From Campylobacterales bacterium (lineage in GTDB: Bacteria; Campylobacterota; Campylobacteria; Campylobacterales; QNZT01), in contig JADGDK010000007.1 in assembly GCA_016744895.1 (NCBI GenBank), positions 6,227 to 49,045 of the forward strand: 42,819 bases of DNA. The letters run 5' to 3'. The notes below the pieces were generated by a model that was not told where the DNA came from, ran no database searches, and worked only from the letters and a program-made list of their open reading frames with translations. The position numbers were made by a program, and so were the translations under genes. This document shows, piece after piece, positions 33,905 through 41,281 of this stretch (its first letter is position 1; each line of letters starts with the position of its first letter).

Positions 33905-34774
33905 TTATATTAAATTCTGATGTATTTTCAGATCTTTATCAATCAATAAAACGCCTAATCCATCAGGAATAAATAGATCTTTTTCAAGCATGAAAACAGT
34001 ACTATAAACTCCACTAGTCAAAACTTTGTCTGATATAATTGTTGAGGATATAATCTCTTTTGCGTTATATTTTTGACCGATTATATGAGAAAATTGTTTA
34101 CCTTCTATCTCCTTATTTCTCTCATAGTTTGCTGATGTGGTAAGAGCTTGATTGTGTAAAGGGATGATTGCTATATTTTCATTGGGATTTATTGGATTTT
34201 TTATACCTATAGAAAATGGTTCACCATTTGGTTTTAATCCATATCCAAATATATCTCCACCATAGTTTATAAGTGCTGTTTTTATACCATACTTAATTGC
34301 AATTTTTGTAGCTTCATCTACGGCATACTCTTTGATAACTCCACCAAGATCCAGAAGAGTTCTAAGATCTTTAAAATGTAACTTTTTATCTTTTAGATGC
34401 CAAGAATTCAATCCAGTAAAAGGTTCTTTCTTCTCAAGGCACTTTTGAACTTTGTTTAGAGTATTTTGCTTATAGCACTCTTTTAGTGTTCCAGTAGTTA
34501 TATCAAAGATTTCATTTGTTTTTTCACTTAGGTTTCTTATCTCTTTTAAAACTTCAAAAGTTTGACTATCGATAGTAACTTTATTCCTTCTCCTACCATT
34601 TATAACTCTATTTAGATATGATTTTTTGTCATAAAAGTTATATTTTTTTTCAAGTAGCAGTGTATTTTTTTTAATTTCATTAAAGCAAAGATTTGCTATC
34701 TCTTTATTCTCCGTATAAAGTTGTACTTTACACGAAGTTGTCATAGATTCAAATACAAAATCAAAAAGTTCCAT
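33905..34774 (-). CDS. apbE: ApbE-type FAD:protein FMN transferase
   Basis: A 289-residue ApbE homologue, which transfers FMN from FAD to a Ser/Thr of Dxx(S/T)GA(S/T) targets. Motifs: FESMTTS (family MGT region, 8-14), TLLDLGGVIKEYAVDEA (family DLGGIAKGYAVD, 140-155), NYGGDIFGYG (170-179), LTTSANYER (211-219), FSHIIG (228-233) and SGVYSTVFML (254-263). Two points differ from the norm: KE replaces KG at 148-149, and the usual ADALST-type metal loop reads TSGVYST. There is no signal peptide; an in-frame stop lies 8 codons upstream of the ATG, so none is hidden. The ATG is 2 bases after the stop of the propeller lipoprotein gene. It is the last gene of the operon. Confidence 0.9.
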   Translation of the reverse strand: MELFDFVFESMTTSCKVQLYTENKEIANLCFNEIKKNTLLLEKKYNFYDKKSYLNRVINGRRRNKVTIDSQTFEVLKEIRNLSEKTNEIFDITTGTLKECYKQNTLNKVQKCLEKKEPFTGLNSWHLKDKKLHFKDLRTLLDLGGVIKEYAVDEATKIAIKYGIKTALINYGGDIFGYGLKPNGEPFSIGIKNPINPNENIAIIPLHNQALTTSANYERNKEIEGKQFSHIIGQKYNAKEIISSTIISDKVLTSGVYSTVFMLEKDLFIPDGLGVLLIDKDLKIHQNLI

Positions 34775-34776
34775 AA

Positions 34777-35988
34777 TTAATTCTCTAGACTTATATCATA
34801 ATATACTATACTTGTCCCAGTAGTAATCATTAGTTTAGATTCACTTAAAAATACAGCTCCATTTGCTCGTTCAGATAATTTTATAACTTTTGGAGTATCT
34901 GCTCCATCTATGGAGAAAAGATTTACCTGATTACCTGTTGCTGAGATCGCAAAGGTTTTTTTATCTGGTGATACACTTATTGATTTTGCACTTCCATTTA
35001 TAATAAGTGTTTTTTCAAGTACAAGAGTGTTCACATCTGTTATATCATATATCCTTGCTTTGTTACTTCCTACAAAAATAGCAATTATTTTATTTTGATC
35101 AGGAATTTCTACAATAGATTTAGGTATGCCTGTTGTTTCTATTTCTGCTAATTGGGTTTTTGATTCAATATCAAATATTCTTATATATTTTTTCAAACCA
35201 ATTGTACCACAAAAAATATACTCATCATCGTAACTAAAGTTTAGAGATCTTACTTTTGAACTTTGTGTTCCAACATCTATCTCTATTGGATTATTTAAAT
35301 CATCTACATTAAAGATTTTAATCTTCTTATCTTCTCCTCCACCAATAAGCTTTTGTCCATCATGACTAAGAGCTATATCTCTAATATCAGGATAATTAAA
35401 GTAGTTTGAGTCGGAATTGTCTCGTCTAGAGAATCTAGCTTCAGGTATTCCATTGTTAATATTGTCACTATAAATTCCAACACCCAAATCATCACTATCA
35501 TCACTATATTTTTCAAGTAATGAAAAAACTGATGTACCACTTTCATTTATCAAAACTTTCTCTAAAATCTGTTCAGATGCTCCAGTAGTTGTATCTATAG
35601 TTATAGTTTCACCTGATGAGTATCGGCTTCCTGTAACATCCAAATAGAGTTTATCATCACTTATTGTTTGTGTACTTGGATCTATGATCATCAATCGATT
35701 GTCCCATTTGTTATATACAATGGCATTTTGTGAAGATAGCGCCAACCCTTGCGTTATTTCATCAGAATCTTGTTTTTCCCAAGTAATATTATCATCATTT
35801 TTTATAACGCTTATATCAATTTGTGTAGCTTGTGTTTTATCTTCACTATCGTTAACTACATTTTGATTATTTGTATCACTAGGCATACAGTTATTACACT
35901 CTTTTGCTTTGTACTTATCTTCACTATTACAAGCAGTTAACATCAATACGGTAATGACTGAACATACTATTTTTCTATTAATATTCAT
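34777..35988 (-). CDS. Beta-propeller lipoprotein with ApbE target motif
   Basis: A 403-residue lipoprotein with lipobox MLTAC (Cys20) and a CNNC pair near residue 31. From ~70 it is a WD40/YVTN-like propeller, with repeated blades of the type DIRDIALSHDGQKLIGGGEDKKIKIFN, KVRSLNFSYDDEYIFCGT and AKSISVSPDKKTFAISATGNQVNLFS. Residues 132-138 read DTTTGAS, an exact Dxx(S/T)GA(S/T) flavinylation motif with Ser138 as the predicted FMN acceptor; apbE follows immediately. It is inferred to be an extracytosolic flavoprotein electron carrier. It overlaps the DUF3570-type gene by 11 bases. Confidence 0.82.
   Translation of the reverse strand: MNINRKIVCSVITVLMLTACNSEDKYKAKECNNCMPSDTNNQNVVNDSEDKTQATQIDISVIKNDDNITWEKQDSDEITQGLALSSQNAIVYNKWDNRLMIIDPSTQTISDDKLYLDVTGSRYSSGETITIDTTTGASEQILEKVLINESGTSVFSLLEKYSDDSDDLGVGIYSDNINNGIPEARFSRRDNSDSNYFNYPDIRDIALSHDGQKLIGGGEDKKIKIFNVDDLNNPIEIDVGTQSSKVRSLNFSYDDEYIFCGTIGLKKYIRIFDIESKTQLAEIETTGIPKSIVEIPDQNKIIAIFVGSNKARIYDITDVNTLVLEKTLIINGSAKSISVSPDKKTFAISATGNQVNLFSIDGADTPKVIKLSERANGAVFLSESKLMITTGTSIVYYDISLEN
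35575..35595 (-). other. Predicted covalent-FMN site (DTTTGAS) in the propeller lipoprotein
   Basis: These codons encode D132-S138. The motif is the published ApbE consensus, known from NqrB/NqrC and RnfG proteins; the last residue is the attachment point in those proteins. Confidence 0.7.
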
Positions 35989-37186
35989 AACTTACTCCTG
36001 TTGATATCCAATGGCTTTTTAGGTCATAAGATGTCTCTTGCGTTGCAAGGTTTAAATTAAAATCCCATTTACCTTTGAGATCAGATTCTACACCAAAACC
36101 AAAAGTCCAACTATCAAACTCTCCTAACCTATCATCACTCGTAGCATAGCCATCTTCAGAGAACATAAAATCACCTTGACGATCTTTCCAAAAACTAGCT
36201 TCACTCTGTGTATAATAACGAATCATGGGAGCCAACCTTACATTATTTAATACATTGTAAAAACTTTTTAATTCAGCTGTATGAGACTGAATATCCCAAT
36301 CATCTTTATAGTAACGATAGTTTCCATGGACTATTAACCCTTTTTTTAACTCACTGATTCCATAAAGAGCAATTCCAGATTGATTTTTTTCATCAGGTCT
36401 AACTTCACGAGCTCGATAATATCTATATATTGGACTTTGTGCTGCATCAGCTTCATTGACACGACGAATTACTGTCTGATAAGGATTAGTCAAAGCTTTG
36501 GACTGTTGTGATCTAAAAAATGTAATTTGAGCAAGTGTTTGGGGAGTAAATATCTGAGTAAATGTAATTTCTGTATTCCATATATCCATATCTTTCCACT
36601 CTTCATCAAAGTAAAAGTATGATTCATTTCCTTGTACTGAAACACCTGCTGAAATTGATTGATTTTTATTTTCATCTAAATAGTGTAGATAGCTTAAAGA
36701 AGTTTCTGTACTTTTAAAGTCGTCTTCTTCAGAATAACTAACTCCAAAACCCCATTCATTTCTTTTAGGAGTTCTATATGTTAAAGAAGTGTTAATAGCC
36801 TTTCTTTCATCAACCATTTCTATATTTCTATAAACAAAATCACTTAAATCTATCTGTCCATCACCTATTAAATTTCCTGGTCTTCTTTCTGGATCATCAC
36901 ATATATAAGATCCTGACTCATCAGTACAAGGGGAAGGACTAGAAATAGAATCAAATATAGGAGTACCTCCAGTAATCTCATCATATGTAAATGATGCACT
37001 AAGAGAAAAATCTGTACCCAACTCTTTTTTTATATCAAGTATCGTATAATCCACTTTAATACGATCATCACTTTCTGCATAATGTTCTTGCTGAAATTTT
37101 ACAACATCTCCACTTCCCGCATTTGAAATAGATACAACGCCTGTTACAGCCGCTGATATGATTATATTTTTAGATTTTAATTGCAT
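35978..37186 (-). CDS. DUF3570-type outer-membrane beta-barrel
   Basis: A 402-residue protein with a signal peptide (~1-23), then FQQEHYAESDDRIKVDYTILDIKKELGTDFSLSASFTYDEITGGTP, which matches the start of DUF3570 proteins. Many amphipathic strands follow (WGFGVSYSEEDDF, GLIVHGNYRYYKDDWDI, VRLAPMIRYYTQSEASFW), with a C-terminal strand ISTGVSYEY ending in Tyr. ATG 37186 is chosen over TTG 37192 because GGAGG lies 6 bases upstream. Residues 69-75, DEITGGT, nearly match the ApbE target motif. An internal DGQIDLSDF recalls a calcium-binding loop. The gene overlaps the DUF4266-type gene by 10 bases. It is inferred to be the outer-membrane partner of the flavin system. Confidence 0.82.
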   Translation of the reverse strand: MQLKSKNIIISAAVTGVVSISNAGSGDVVKFQQEHYAESDDRIKVDYTILDIKKELGTDFSLSASFTYDEITGGTPIFDSISSPSPCTDESGSYICDDPERRPGNLIGDGQIDLSDFVYRNIEMVDERKAINTSLTYRTPKRNEWGFGVSYSEEDDFKSTETSLSYLHYLDENKNQSISAGVSVQGNESYFYFDEEWKDMDIWNTEITFTQIFTPQTLAQITFFRSQQSKALTNPYQTVIRRVNEADAAQSPIYRYYRAREVRPDEKNQSGIALYGISELKKGLIVHGNYRYYKDDWDIQSHTAELKSFYNVLNNVRLAPMIRYYTQSEASFWKDRQGDFMFSEDGYATSDDRLGEFDSWTFGFGVESDLKGKWDFNLNLATQETSYDLKSHWISTGVSYEY

Positions 37187-37395: not shown

Positions 37396-37845
37396 TCACA
37401 GTCCTTCTATCTTTTTTGCTAATTTTTTATCTATGTTATCTACTGCTCCCAGAATAGCATCAACAACTTTTCCATCTTTGATAATGTAACATGCGGGCAT
37501 TCCTATAGGGTCAAAAGCTGCAATTACTTCTTGTGTTGAATCATTATGAACTCTAAAATCAAGAGCTAATTTCTTTTGAAAAGATAGACCATCTTTTATA
37601 TTCTTATCAGTATCAATTCCTAAAACTTCTATTTTTTTAGAATCACTATTTTTATGTAGAGAATTTACAAGTGGTAACTCTTTTTCACATGATATACACC
37701 AAGATGCAAAAAAGTCAATAACTGTAATTTTTGAGTTATCTAATTTTAAGATTTTTGAGATTTCAGGTTCTATTTTATCACCAATTTTATAAGCTTGTAA
37801 ACTTAATGCTAAAATAGAGGTAATTATTATAGCTTTTTTGAACAT
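37396..37845 (-). CDS. TlpA/ResA-like periplasmic thioredoxin
   Basis: A 149-residue exported thioredoxin-fold protein. The signal peptide (~1-18) is followed by KITVIDFFASWCISCEKELP with redox pair C50/C53 (CISC), the KIEVLGIDTDKNI strand, the cis-proline loop IGMPACYIIKDGKVV (P117) and a short C-terminal helix. The family reduces or oxidises disulfides outside the cytoplasm. The most likely client is the Cys-rich tail of the lipoprotein encoded 3 bases downstream; heme-apoprotein reduction is less likely because no CxxCH protein is encoded nearby. Confidence 0.9.
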   Translation of the reverse strand: MFKKAIIITSILALSLQAYKIGDKIEPEISKILKLDNSKITVIDFFASWCISCEKELPLVNSLHKNSDSKKIEVLGIDTDKNIKDGLSFQKKLALDFRVHNDSTQEVIAAFDPIGMPACYIIKDGKVVDAILGAVDNIDKKLAKKIEGL

Positions 37846-37874
37846 TTTTGTTTCCTTATTTATATTATGTAAGA

Positions 37875-37904
37875 TTAGAGGGTGGGGAATTCCTCACCCT
37901 CTAA
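37875..37904 (-). terminator. Strong 30-base hairpin after the large lipoprotein gene
   Basis: Arms 37875-37889 and 37890-37904 (TTAGAGGGTG...CACCCTCTAA, centre GGAATTCC) pair at 14 of 15 positions. On the minus strand it lies 18 bases after the stop of the large lipoprotein and 30 bases before the tlpA-like ATG. The T-tail is weak, so it may attenuate or protect mRNA rather than stop it. Confidence 0.6.
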
Positions 37905-37922
37905 TTTAATTTGTTTTATAAG

Positions 37923-40706
37923 CTATGGAATTGTAACTACAGCCATCTGTCTTTTTTTATCACTATTTGTATAATTAAAGAATACTCTTTTGCCATCGCC
38001 TGAAACTGCCATTCTATCAGCTCCTGATGGTTCATTTGAAAATGATTCTTCACTTATAGTCCCATCATCTGCAATATTAAGTATATATATTCCGTTTAAT
38101 GATTTATCTGATCTTTGTACTGGAATCATTAGTTTATTTTCTCCATCAACTACTCTTCCTTCAGCACCATACATACGACCTCCTGTACCTGTACTAAATA
38201 TTTTTTTGTCTTGAAGGTCTTCATTGAAGCTAAATATATTTCCATCATATGTATTTACAATTACTCTTTGATGTGCATACCAAACTCTCGCTATTTCTTC
38301 AACTTCTGCAGAAGCTACTACACCATTTGCATCAACTGCATAAACTTTTTCACCATCTCTTTGGAAAGCCCTGTCTCCTTCATTATTAATTGCTGGAGGA
38401 CCATATGTTTTATACTCTTTATTGTCTCCCATATCAATTGTGCTATTTATAGTGATATTTCCACTTGCATCCACATCATAAATTTCAGCTAAAAATGTGT
38501 CATCATCTTCTTTAACAAAAACTATAGCCTTAGAGTTGTCATTATTCCACTCTACATTGCTTGGTGTACCTGTTGTAATATCTAAAGAGTTTGTTGCATC
38601 AGCAGCTAAAGTTCCATCTTGCCCTACTGCTACACTAAATATTCTACCAAATTCCTCTTTTTTTGTTATTGCAAATGCATTAACACCATTTACTCCTACA
38701 CCTACAACTTCTTCATCATCAGCAAATCTCTTTGGTTCAGTTGCCACTGATATTTCACCTGCTTCATTTACAGAGTACGAGGCTAATCCATATTTTGTCT
38801 CTTCACCAAATGTAGCTTGGATTGGTGCTACAAGTATACTTCCATCACCATTTGCCGCCATATATTGAGCTATTCCTGTTTCTACAGATTTTGGAGTTGG
38901 TAATATTACTGGAACTTTACGAATATTAATATCAAACTCTTTATTTCCTATTTTTGTAGTACTTCTAAATGAAGCTGTAAGTGCAGCTTGTAGTTTTCCA
39001 CTCTCATCCTGTGCTTCATTTGTTGGTCTTGTGACTTCACCATTGGCTGGATTTAAAACTCCTGTTGGAAGAGTACTTGTCCAAGAAATACCGACATTTT
39101 CATATGCACTATTTAGTGATACATCTTTTATAATGGCATTAAGATAACCACCACCATTGATTGATGATCTATTTAGTCCTTTTTTAGCAAGTTCGATTTT
39201 AGTGTCTAAATTTATATTTTGGGTAGTTGTTGTAATGTTTATCATACCAACACTATTTCTACCGTTTATAATCGCTAATTTATCATTATCTAAAAACTCT
39301 GCATCTCTTACACCTTCAGCTGGGAAAAGACCCTGTACACTAAAGTTTGGCACCGTAAGGTTTAAAATCATAACATCACTAGATTCGTGTCCCACAAGAG
39401 CCATTTTGCTAAAGTCAGGAGATATTACCGCAGTATCTGAAGTAAATTTTGTATTAGAAGCATTGATACTACCATCAGCCAAATTTACAATAGCTATATC
39501 TGTAATACCTTTATTATCATGGCCATGATTAAACGCTACAAGCTTACTTGCATCACTATTTATAATTATCTCAGCTGGTTTAAATCCAAGGATAATTTTT
39601 TCATTTCCAGTAAGAGTTTCTGCGGATAATTTAGTAATATTTTTATCATTTGCAACAAATACGGTATCACCTTCAACGGCTATAGCATCAAAACCATCAG
39701 ATTCTATAGCAGCTATTTCATTAGTTAAATCTCCATCATATACAAAGAGGTTTTTTTCACTATCTAACACAACAACTTTACTATCATCACTAGCTACTGC
39801 ATATTTAGAAACTATTTTATTTAATCTTTTAGAGTTTGTTAAATCTATGGAAACTCTCTCACCAACTGTAAATCCAGTTGTATCTGTAGTTGTTGCTATA
39901 GATCCATCATCTTCTATTTTAACTTTATATAGTCCTATTGTAGCCGTATCTGCAGTTTTTGAGCTAGCTCCTTTAGGAGGTATATTTGCATACACATAAG
40001 AAGAGTCAGAATTTAGAACAACATTTCTTAAATAATTTTCACTAGCTCCAGATGTAGAATCTTTTCCATGTCCTGAATCTGTTATAACTGAAACTGGAGA
40101 AAATACTTTGTCTCCTGATGTTATATCGATCACAGTAAGAGCATTGTGATAGTGACTAGCAGCCACAATTTTTCCATTTTTTGCTGTAATTTTACTAATG
40201 GAAGCATCTTTAGAGTCAACCCATTTAGGGTCAATTTGTGCCTTTATTTCTTCATCCACGTTTTTAGATAAAGATTCTGTAAATTCAAGTTTTGCCAAAG
40301 ATGGAATATCTGCTTCTTGTATCTCATTATCGGTAACAGTTATATCTTTGATTCCTTGTGGGTTTGAAGATACCATTGTCATTACTTTATTTATAACTGC
40401 TGCAGTCACAGCGCTTGGATTTGCATCAGGGTGTGCTGCTTTTGCATTCTTAACCGCTGTTTCTACATCTTTTAGGTTTTGAGAAGTAGGATTTTTATTA
40501 CCAAACTTCTCTTTTACATAAGCTTCAACTGCTGGTATTGTTTTTGAATCTATAACTTGATTATATATTAATTCATTATTTAATATGGTATCTCCTAAAA
40601 TTTTACTTTGTAAATTCGTAGTCATACCCCCAGAGCCATTAGAACTTCCACAACCTACTAAAATAGTTGCTAGAGAGATAGATATAAGACTGTTCTTGTA
40701 TTTCAT
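37923..40706 (-). CDS. Large double beta-propeller lipoprotein with ApbE target motif
   Basis: A 927-residue lipoprotein: lipobox LVGC (Cys19), a helical region (~30-150), a first propeller (~165-495), an atrophied bacterial Ig domain (~502-598, ISWTSTLPTGVLNPANGEVTRP), and a second propeller (~605-927). Residues 216-222 read DSTSGAS, an exact ApbE target motif with predicted FMN on Ser222, followed by ENYLRNVVLNSD, which parallels the context in the smaller propeller (EQILEKVLINES). Blades are YVTN-like. The ATG at 40706 with AAAGGA is chosen over 40754, which lacks a signal peptide start. It is the first gene of the flavin operon. Confidence 0.82.
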   Translation of the reverse strand: MKYKNSLISISLATILVGCGSSNGSGGMTTNLQSKILGDTILNNELIYNQVIDSKTIPAVEAYVKEKFGNKNPTSQNLKDVETAVKNAKAAHPDANPSAVTAAVINKVMTMVSSNPQGIKDITVTDNEIQEADIPSLAKLEFTESLSKNVDEEIKAQIDPKWVDSKDASISKITAKNGKIVAASHYHNALTVIDITSGDKVFSPVSVITDSGHGKDSTSGASENYLRNVVLNSDSSYVYANIPPKGASSKTADTATIGLYKVKIEDDGSIATTTDTTGFTVGERVSIDLTNSKRLNKIVSKYAVASDDSKVVVLDSEKNLFVYDGDLTNEIAAIESDGFDAIAVEGDTVFVANDKNITKLSAETLTGNEKIILGFKPAEIIINSDASKLVAFNHGHDNKGITDIAIVNLADGSINASNTKFTSDTAVISPDFSKMALVGHESSDVMILNLTVPNFSVQGLFPAEGVRDAEFLDNDKLAIINGRNSVGMINITTTTQNINLDTKIELAKKGLNRSSINGGGYLNAIIKDVSLNSAYENVGISWTSTLPTGVLNPANGEVTRPTNEAQDESGKLQAALTASFRSTTKIGNKEFDINIRKVPVILPTPKSVETGIAQYMAANGDGSILVAPIQATFGEETKYGLASYSVNEAGEISVATEPKRFADDEEVVGVGVNGVNAFAITKKEEFGRIFSVAVGQDGTLAADATNSLDITTGTPSNVEWNNDNSKAIVFVKEDDDTFLAEIYDVDASGNITINSTIDMGDNKEYKTYGPPAINNEGDRAFQRDGEKVYAVDANGVVASAEVEEIARVWYAHQRVIVNTYDGNIFSFNEDLQDKKIFSTGTGGRMYGAEGRVVDGENKLMIPVQRSDKSLNGIYILNIADDGTISEESFSNEPSGADRMAVSGDGKRVFFNYTNSDKKRQMAVVTIP
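40041..40061 (-). other. Predicted covalent-FMN site (DSTSGAS) in the large lipoprotein
   Basis: These codons encode D216-S222. The Dxx(S/T)GA(S/T) match is exact and lies at the same place relative to the first propeller blades as the motif of the smaller lipoprotein. Confidence 0.7.
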
Positions 40707-40752: not shown

Positions 40753-40819
40753 AATATAAAACTTAAATTATACAGATAATGAAATCCGTTATCACTAGCA
40801 TATAATTTAAGTTTATATT
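40753..40819. repeat. ~19-bp inverted repeat with outward-facing -10 boxes
   Basis: The left arm 40753-40772 and right arm 40801-40819 are complementary over 19 bases with one extra A in the left arm; an inner GATAA/TTATC pair sits in the 28-base spacer. Each arm contains TATAAT reading outward: 40767-40772 on the minus strand, toward the large lipoprotein gene (~60 bases from its ATG), and 40801-40806 on the plus strand. It may be a divergent promoter/operator pair or the end of a small mobile repeat. Confidence 0.65.
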
Positions 40820-40837
40820 AATGATAAATAAGAGTAG

Positions 40838-41086
40838 TTCAAATTGAGGTTATTTCATTGTAAATACTGTACTAGCATGTCAATAGCGGAGTTAAATTAG
40901 GCAGTCCAAGAGATTTCTGAAAACAGTTTTTACAACTGCTATCTTGGATAAATTATTGATATCCTTGATAACTCTTATCGATTAAAAGAGAAAAAGGAGG
41001 AAAGTCTTGTAGATTCAGATTTATATAAGTTTAACCCATCTAAACTACTAAAAGAAAAGAATAAAAGGCGTTTCTTAAGGTTGTAA
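40838..41086 (+). pseudogene. Possible decayed ORF upstream of the flavin operon
   Basis: One plus-strand frame reads FKLRLFHCKYCTSMSIAELN, stop, AVQEISENSFYNCYLG, stop, then a 44-codon stretch beginning IIDILDNSYRLKEKKEESLV and ending NKRRFLRL, stop. The composition is protein-like and keeps one frame across two stops; a CxxC pair near the start hints at a zinc ribbon. There is no usable start codon. I do not recognise the family; chance reading in AT-rich DNA remains possible. The 575-base stretch 40707-41281 otherwise holds only the inverted repeat and the micro-ORF. Confidence 0.35.
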
Positions 41087-41099
41087 GACGTAGAATTAA

Positions 41100-41159
41100 C
41101 TACGAAAAACTGACGACATTTACTCCAATATTCACAACATGATCACCCTTTTTTGTCAT
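41100..41159 (-). CDS. Micro-ORF or gene remnant with good ribosome site
   Basis: A 19-residue reading frame (MTKKGDHVVNIGVNVVSFS) starts with ATG, has GGAG 7 bases upstream and a TATAAT (41234-41239, minus strand) further upstream. It could be a leader peptide, a small protein, or the 5' stub of a deleted gene. No similarity is recognised. Confidence 0.3.
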   Translation of the reverse strand: MTKKGDHVVNIGVNVVSFS

Positions 41160-41281
41160 CTTAAATCTCCTATCTCTTATGTTACTCTAAGTAGAAATTT
41201 AAATCTATATTTGGGTGTCTTCATGCCTGTATCATTATAAATTGTTCTTACAAAAATAGTGTCAAAGATAAAACAAATAAA

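Follow-up and report, generated by a model that had tools for sequence, protein, structure and literature searches.

A central question raised by this locus concerns the carrier of its flavin; namely, whether covalent FMN is held by the DUF3570 barrel, an experimentally shown substrate of the FMN transferase ApbE (PMC8238504), or by lipoproteins encoded beside it. The window, by which we mean the whole analysed stretch of 42,819 nucleotides from a Campylobacterales bacterium, encodes on its minus strand, in this order, a 927-aa lipoprotein, a thioredoxin/ResA-like protein, a DUF4266 protein, a DUF3570 barrel, a 403-aa WD40-like lipoprotein and ApbE (Table 1). Clusters of ApbE, DUF3570, thioredoxin-like and DUF4266 genes, with or without DsbD, have been described previously (Meheust et al. 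2021, PMC8238504). The window locus is a variant of this known flavinylation cluster, with all four partner genes together (Pfam matches: ApbE, 8.7e-47; DUF3570, 5.9e-52; DUF4266, 2.9e-19; AhpC-TSA, 7.7e-12), a CxC at the C terminus of the DUF4266 protein and a dedicated apbE, as in the published clusters. Unlike those clusters, it has a DUF3570 protein without canonical SGAS sites and one or two additional propeller lipoproteins with DxxSGAS motifs; the word 'propeller' is absent from the main text of that study (PMC8238504). The nearest orthologous locus that we found is from a Sulfurovum metagenome-assembled genome, which makes a Sulfurovum-like member of the Campylobacterota the most likely source of the window.

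The last five genes are tightly packed, with overlaps or gaps of a few bases, and 77 bp containing a 16-bp hairpin separate the 927-aa gene from this run. A preliminary description had placed both propeller genes in one operon; the shared strand agrees with this, but the hairpin-containing gap sets the 927-aa gene apart. The stretch that follows the hairpin is T-rich on the plus strand only, so the hairpin may act in mRNA processing instead of terminating this operon. Co-transcription of the 927-aa gene with the other five is likely. Upstream of the 927-aa gene, approximately 500 bp (40760–41280) contain no long open reading frame and have no match in Rfam, and no Rfam families were found in the region.

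Table 1. Positions of the cluster genes, acceptor motifs and hairpin in the window.
Feature	Positions	Strand	Details
ApbE FMN transferase	33905–34774	-	no signal peptide
403-aa WD40-like lipoprotein	34777–35988	-	LTAC lipobox; conserved CxxC at 35887–35898; acceptor motif
DTTTGAS, acceptor motif of the 403-aa lipoprotein	35575–35595	-	residues 132–138; Ser138 is the predicted FMN acceptor
DUF3570 outer-membrane barrel	35978–37186	-	degenerate sites DEITGGT (36962–36982) and DSISSPS (36932–36952); third site absent
DUF4266 small lipoprotein, 71 aa	37177–37392	-	C-terminal CGCN
Secreted thioredoxin/ResA-like protein	37396–37845	-	active-site CISC at 37687–37698
16-bp hairpin in the gap separating the thioredoxin and 927-aa genes	37872–37907	.	
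927-aa lipoprotein	37923–40706	-	signal peptide; LVGC lipobox; N-terminal WD40-like propeller (residues ~155–495) with acceptor motif
DSTSGAS, acceptor motif of the 927-aa lipoprotein	40041–40061	-	residues 216–222; Ser222 is the predicted FMN acceptor

ApbE acceptors follow the rule D-x-x-[S/T]-G-A-[S/T], whose final residue takes the FMN (PMC12052999), and both DSTSGAS in the 927-aa lipoprotein and DTTTGAS in the 403-aa lipoprotein conform to it. Translation of the minus strand confirmed the first of these exactly as it had been reported; with the Glu that follows, DSTSGASE occupies residues 216–223 of the 927-aa open reading frame and DTTTGASE residues 132–139 of the 403-aa protein (35572–35595). 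The follow-on pattern x-x-L-x-x-V-x-[LI]-N that had been described is likewise present in both proteins (E-N-Y-L-R-N-V-V-L-N and E-Q-I-L-E-K-V-L-I-N). Each motif comes after a V/I-I-D strand, with 22 and 29 residues to the motif Asp, so that the spacing of about 25 given earlier is approximate. Across the 13,301 aa of window open reading frames of at least 100 aa, D..[ST]GA[ST] matches only in these two lipoproteins, and the [ST]GA[ST] core has no further match; shuffled sequences contained the motif in 1.2% (927-aa composition) and 0.27% (403-aa composition) of cases. Apart from one ApbE, the 284 proteins of related loci have the motif only in DUF3570 barrels and in 403-aa orthologues. The match in this ApbE, DKKSGAS in locus L016, was set aside as an acceptor site, being the HI-x-D-x-K-S-G loop of the enzyme itself (HILDKKSG). 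Given its frequency, conservation and context, a chance origin of the motif was rejected.

In the family of the 403-aa lipoprotein, all three orthologues, at 45–50% identity, keep the acceptor motif and are each encoded directly before apbE, including DSVSGAS in the orthologue of locus L014 and the corresponding arrangement in genome G002 (locus L017). WD40 Pfam matches in the 403-aa protein mostly cover the residues after about 165–200. A few residues past the lipobox, a CxxC (CNNC) is invariant in the three orthologues with no His after it; this CNNC is a possible dithiol partner. Downstream of apbE in G002 lies a gene for a TonB-dependent receptor (L017:1404–3464), a possible link to metal uptake.

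We then compared the two propeller lipoproteins with each other. Pairwise BLASTP gave a weak match around the motif (E = 0.007), whereas hhalign of a three-orthologue profile of the 403-aa protein with the 927-aa protein gave E = 2.2e-6 over 277 columns (residues 176–483), with the motifs in register. As the motif itself could drive the similarity, the comparisons were repeated with the motif masked. Masked hhalign kept the register with a score of 34.1 (E = 7e-4), whereas the best of 200 shuffles reached 23.9; in the hhalign controls, the C-terminal part of the 927-aa protein and unrelated operon proteins stayed at background. Masked hmmsearch between the two proteins lost significance. The kinship of the two propellers is thus real but distant, and homology through the motif alone was rejected with moderate confidence on the basis of the masked register. 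In an alignment of four propellers, the densest conservation falls in the 14-column stretch that starts at the motif Asp (7 of 14 columns invariant, compared with 37 of 364 overall). On these sequence comparisons we conclude, in agreement with the paralogy proposed in the preliminary description, that the two N-terminal propellers are distant paralogues in which the motif region is best kept.

Structure prediction gave a propeller for the N-terminal domain of the 927-aa protein (pTM 0.71), with Foldseek similarity to WD40 propellers at E = 8e-15 and an alignment to 4h5j (VIA-align) of Z = 27.5 and r.m.s.d. 3.6 over 304 residues. This domain shares the fold of WD40 beta-propellers such as the Thermomonospora WD40 domain (5yzv) and Sec12 (4h5j) at about 10–13% identity, but the window proteins are lipoproteins with a flavinylation motif. 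The motif occupies residues 87–93 of the model, in a long loop between strands 71–77 and 100–102 of neighbouring blades, and this loop is below pLDDT 50; its exposure is plausible in the model. The model of the 403-aa protein, built from two sequences, has no confidence over residues 1–203, which include the motif. The suggestion that both motifs fall on an equivalent exposed loop could thus be followed for one half, the 927-aa protein, in which the position is inter-blade at low confidence; the equivalence of the two loops rests on the alignment and this one loop.

Past its propeller, the 927-aa protein has an atrophied Ig domain (aBig_2, residues 518–585, E = 6.6e-6, just below the curated cut-off), in line with the Ig domain described before, followed by a C-terminal part. 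This part is possibly the second propeller that had been proposed, given a weak hint from WD40_like (E = 0.0097). No orthologues of the 927-aa protein were found in 59 genomes of relatives, in 397 genomes of the phylum, in the L014 genome or in G002, and the protein stands alone among the roughly 400 genomes searched. No related solved structure was found by sequence, and the search for such propellers on plasmids returned generic WD40 matches only, to the WD40 half.

Known ApbE substrate folds are FMN_bind, NqrB/RnfD, DUF2271, Flavodoxin_4 and FMN_red (PMC8238504, PMC11334425). Like these substrates, the window lipoproteins have an acceptor of the D-x-x-[S/T]-G-A-[S/T] type and a neighbouring apbE gene; they differ in the fold of the carrier, a WD40-like beta-propeller. 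In the literature searched, outside which most subscription papers lie, we found no report linking flavinylation, ApbE and a propeller, and a single paper mentioned DUF3570 and DUF4266. The ApbE proteins encoded next to DUF3570 (window, L014, L017, L021, L022, L059, L062 and L065) lack a signal peptide and have SGV-type residues, with Gly aligned at the usual catalytic, Mg-binding Asp (ADA or LDA in generic ApbE).

To place the barrel, 14 DUF3570 proteins were aligned, in which three acceptor columns are seen. Nine of the 11 other Campylobacterota barrels, among them a second barrel of the source genome (L019), show DxxSGAS in two or all three of these columns, and the Vibrio barrel shows it in one. 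The window barrel is devoid of conserved [S/T]GA[S/T] acceptor sites; it forms one clade with that of L014 (Sulfurovum bin23) at 66% identity, and both read DEITGGT, DSIS[S/A]PS and absent at the three columns, the first site being identical. Barrel degeneration together with a propeller is seen in two loci only; the contig of G002 ends before the barrel gene. The preliminary description, whose interpretation is partly supported, had overlooked these degenerate motifs in the canonical substrate of the same locus. In two further loci of other Campylobacterota, L015 and L016, the barrel sites read DAI[T/S]AAS and DTV[V/A]GAS; with the acceptor Ser kept, they may still be functional. A 60-aa DUF3570-like frame beside another apbE of the source genome (L065:276–458) joins N- and C-terminal parts of a barrel and is either an internal deletion or an assembly artefact.

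These features point to a cluster variant in which one or two propeller lipoproteins probably carry covalent FMN, either in place of the DUF3570 barrel or to a greater extent than it. The best reading is that the lipoproteins are candidate new ApbE substrates that would have taken over the flavin role of the barrel. The ApbE features described above, the single 927-aa protein among the genomes searched and the low confidence of its motif loop count against this reading. A narrower reading, in which ApbE modifies the 403-aa propeller only and its 927-aa paralogue has diverged, with a motif that is vestigial or due to chance, is rather improbable. The 927-aa protein is indeed a singleton that was not found in G002 or the L014 genome, its gene is set off by the hairpin, it has no CxxC and its composition is the one that yields the motif more often on shuffling; however, its motif is a perfect match, stays in register even when masked and lies within the best-conserved stretch. 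Coincidental likeness in a blade loop rich in S, T, G and A, with neither lipoprotein flavinylated, is very unlikely: the hmmsearch similarity of the two proteins is largely due to the motif itself, which speaks for it, but the low chance rate, the three conserved orthologues, the adjacent apbE and the lack of the motif in other window proteins all speak against it.

A different possibility keeps the barrel as the main flavinylated subunit, through DEITGGT or DSISSPS, with the lipoproteins as additions; the system would then be an expanded multi-flavin one in which nothing was relocated. DEITGGT retains the Asp and a Thr at the acceptor position, it is unchanged between two barrels that have otherwise diverged by a third of their residues, and some motif substitutions are tolerated according to a review (PMC12052999). 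We nevertheless consider this unlikely, given that Ala is replaced by Gly at the first site and Gly-Ala by Ser/Ala-Pro at the second and that the third is absent, whereas other barrels are canonical. Because DEITGGT still ends in Thr, maybe a poor acceptor, the barrel may keep its flavin; and given the single site in the Vibrio barrel, fewer than three barrel sites may have been present ancestrally in this branch.

From the computed motifs, gene context, distant propeller homology and barrel-site degeneration, we infer how flavinylation, localization, electron path and acceptor might be arranged if the propellers carry the flavin. The cognate ApbE would place FMN on the Ser that ends D-x-x-[S/T]-G-A-S, in an inter-blade loop of the propeller, and the lipoproteins would sit at the outer membrane beside the barrel. 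Thiol electrons would pass from the periplasmic thioredoxin-like protein through the CxC of the DUF4266 protein and the CxxC of the 403-aa protein to the propeller FMN, and from there, with the help of the barrel, to an acceptor located at the outer membrane or further out. DsbD is encoded elsewhere in the genome and could feed the thioredoxin. The few candidate ApbE substrate folds would thereby gain a propeller, and Ser222 and Ser138 are directly testable by the point mutants S222A and S138A.

Altered barrel sites coincide with a redox lipoprotein beside the barrel, either a flavin-motif propeller or a cytochrome, in a small sample of two plus two loci. The relation between the two may be causal, with an exchange of haem and flavin in the same gene neighbourhood (L015 and L016 versus the window). 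As flavin sites have apparently moved to lipoproteins here and haem lipoproteins stand beside the barrel in another branch, the barrel is suggested to be a scaffold or conduit with an exchangeable redox carrier. Tentatively, flavin-motif propellers may have replaced the flavin sites of the barrel, as haem lipoproteins may have done in other lineages, making the system a modular barrel with interchangeable redox lipoproteins; if true, the outer-membrane conduit would be a flavin analogue of porin–cytochrome conduits. The gene position of the 927-aa lipoprotein is occupied in L015 (10574–12370) and L016 (4629–6408) by two-haem and four-haem lipoproteins, respectively, and in L015 a DsbD gene follows apbE.
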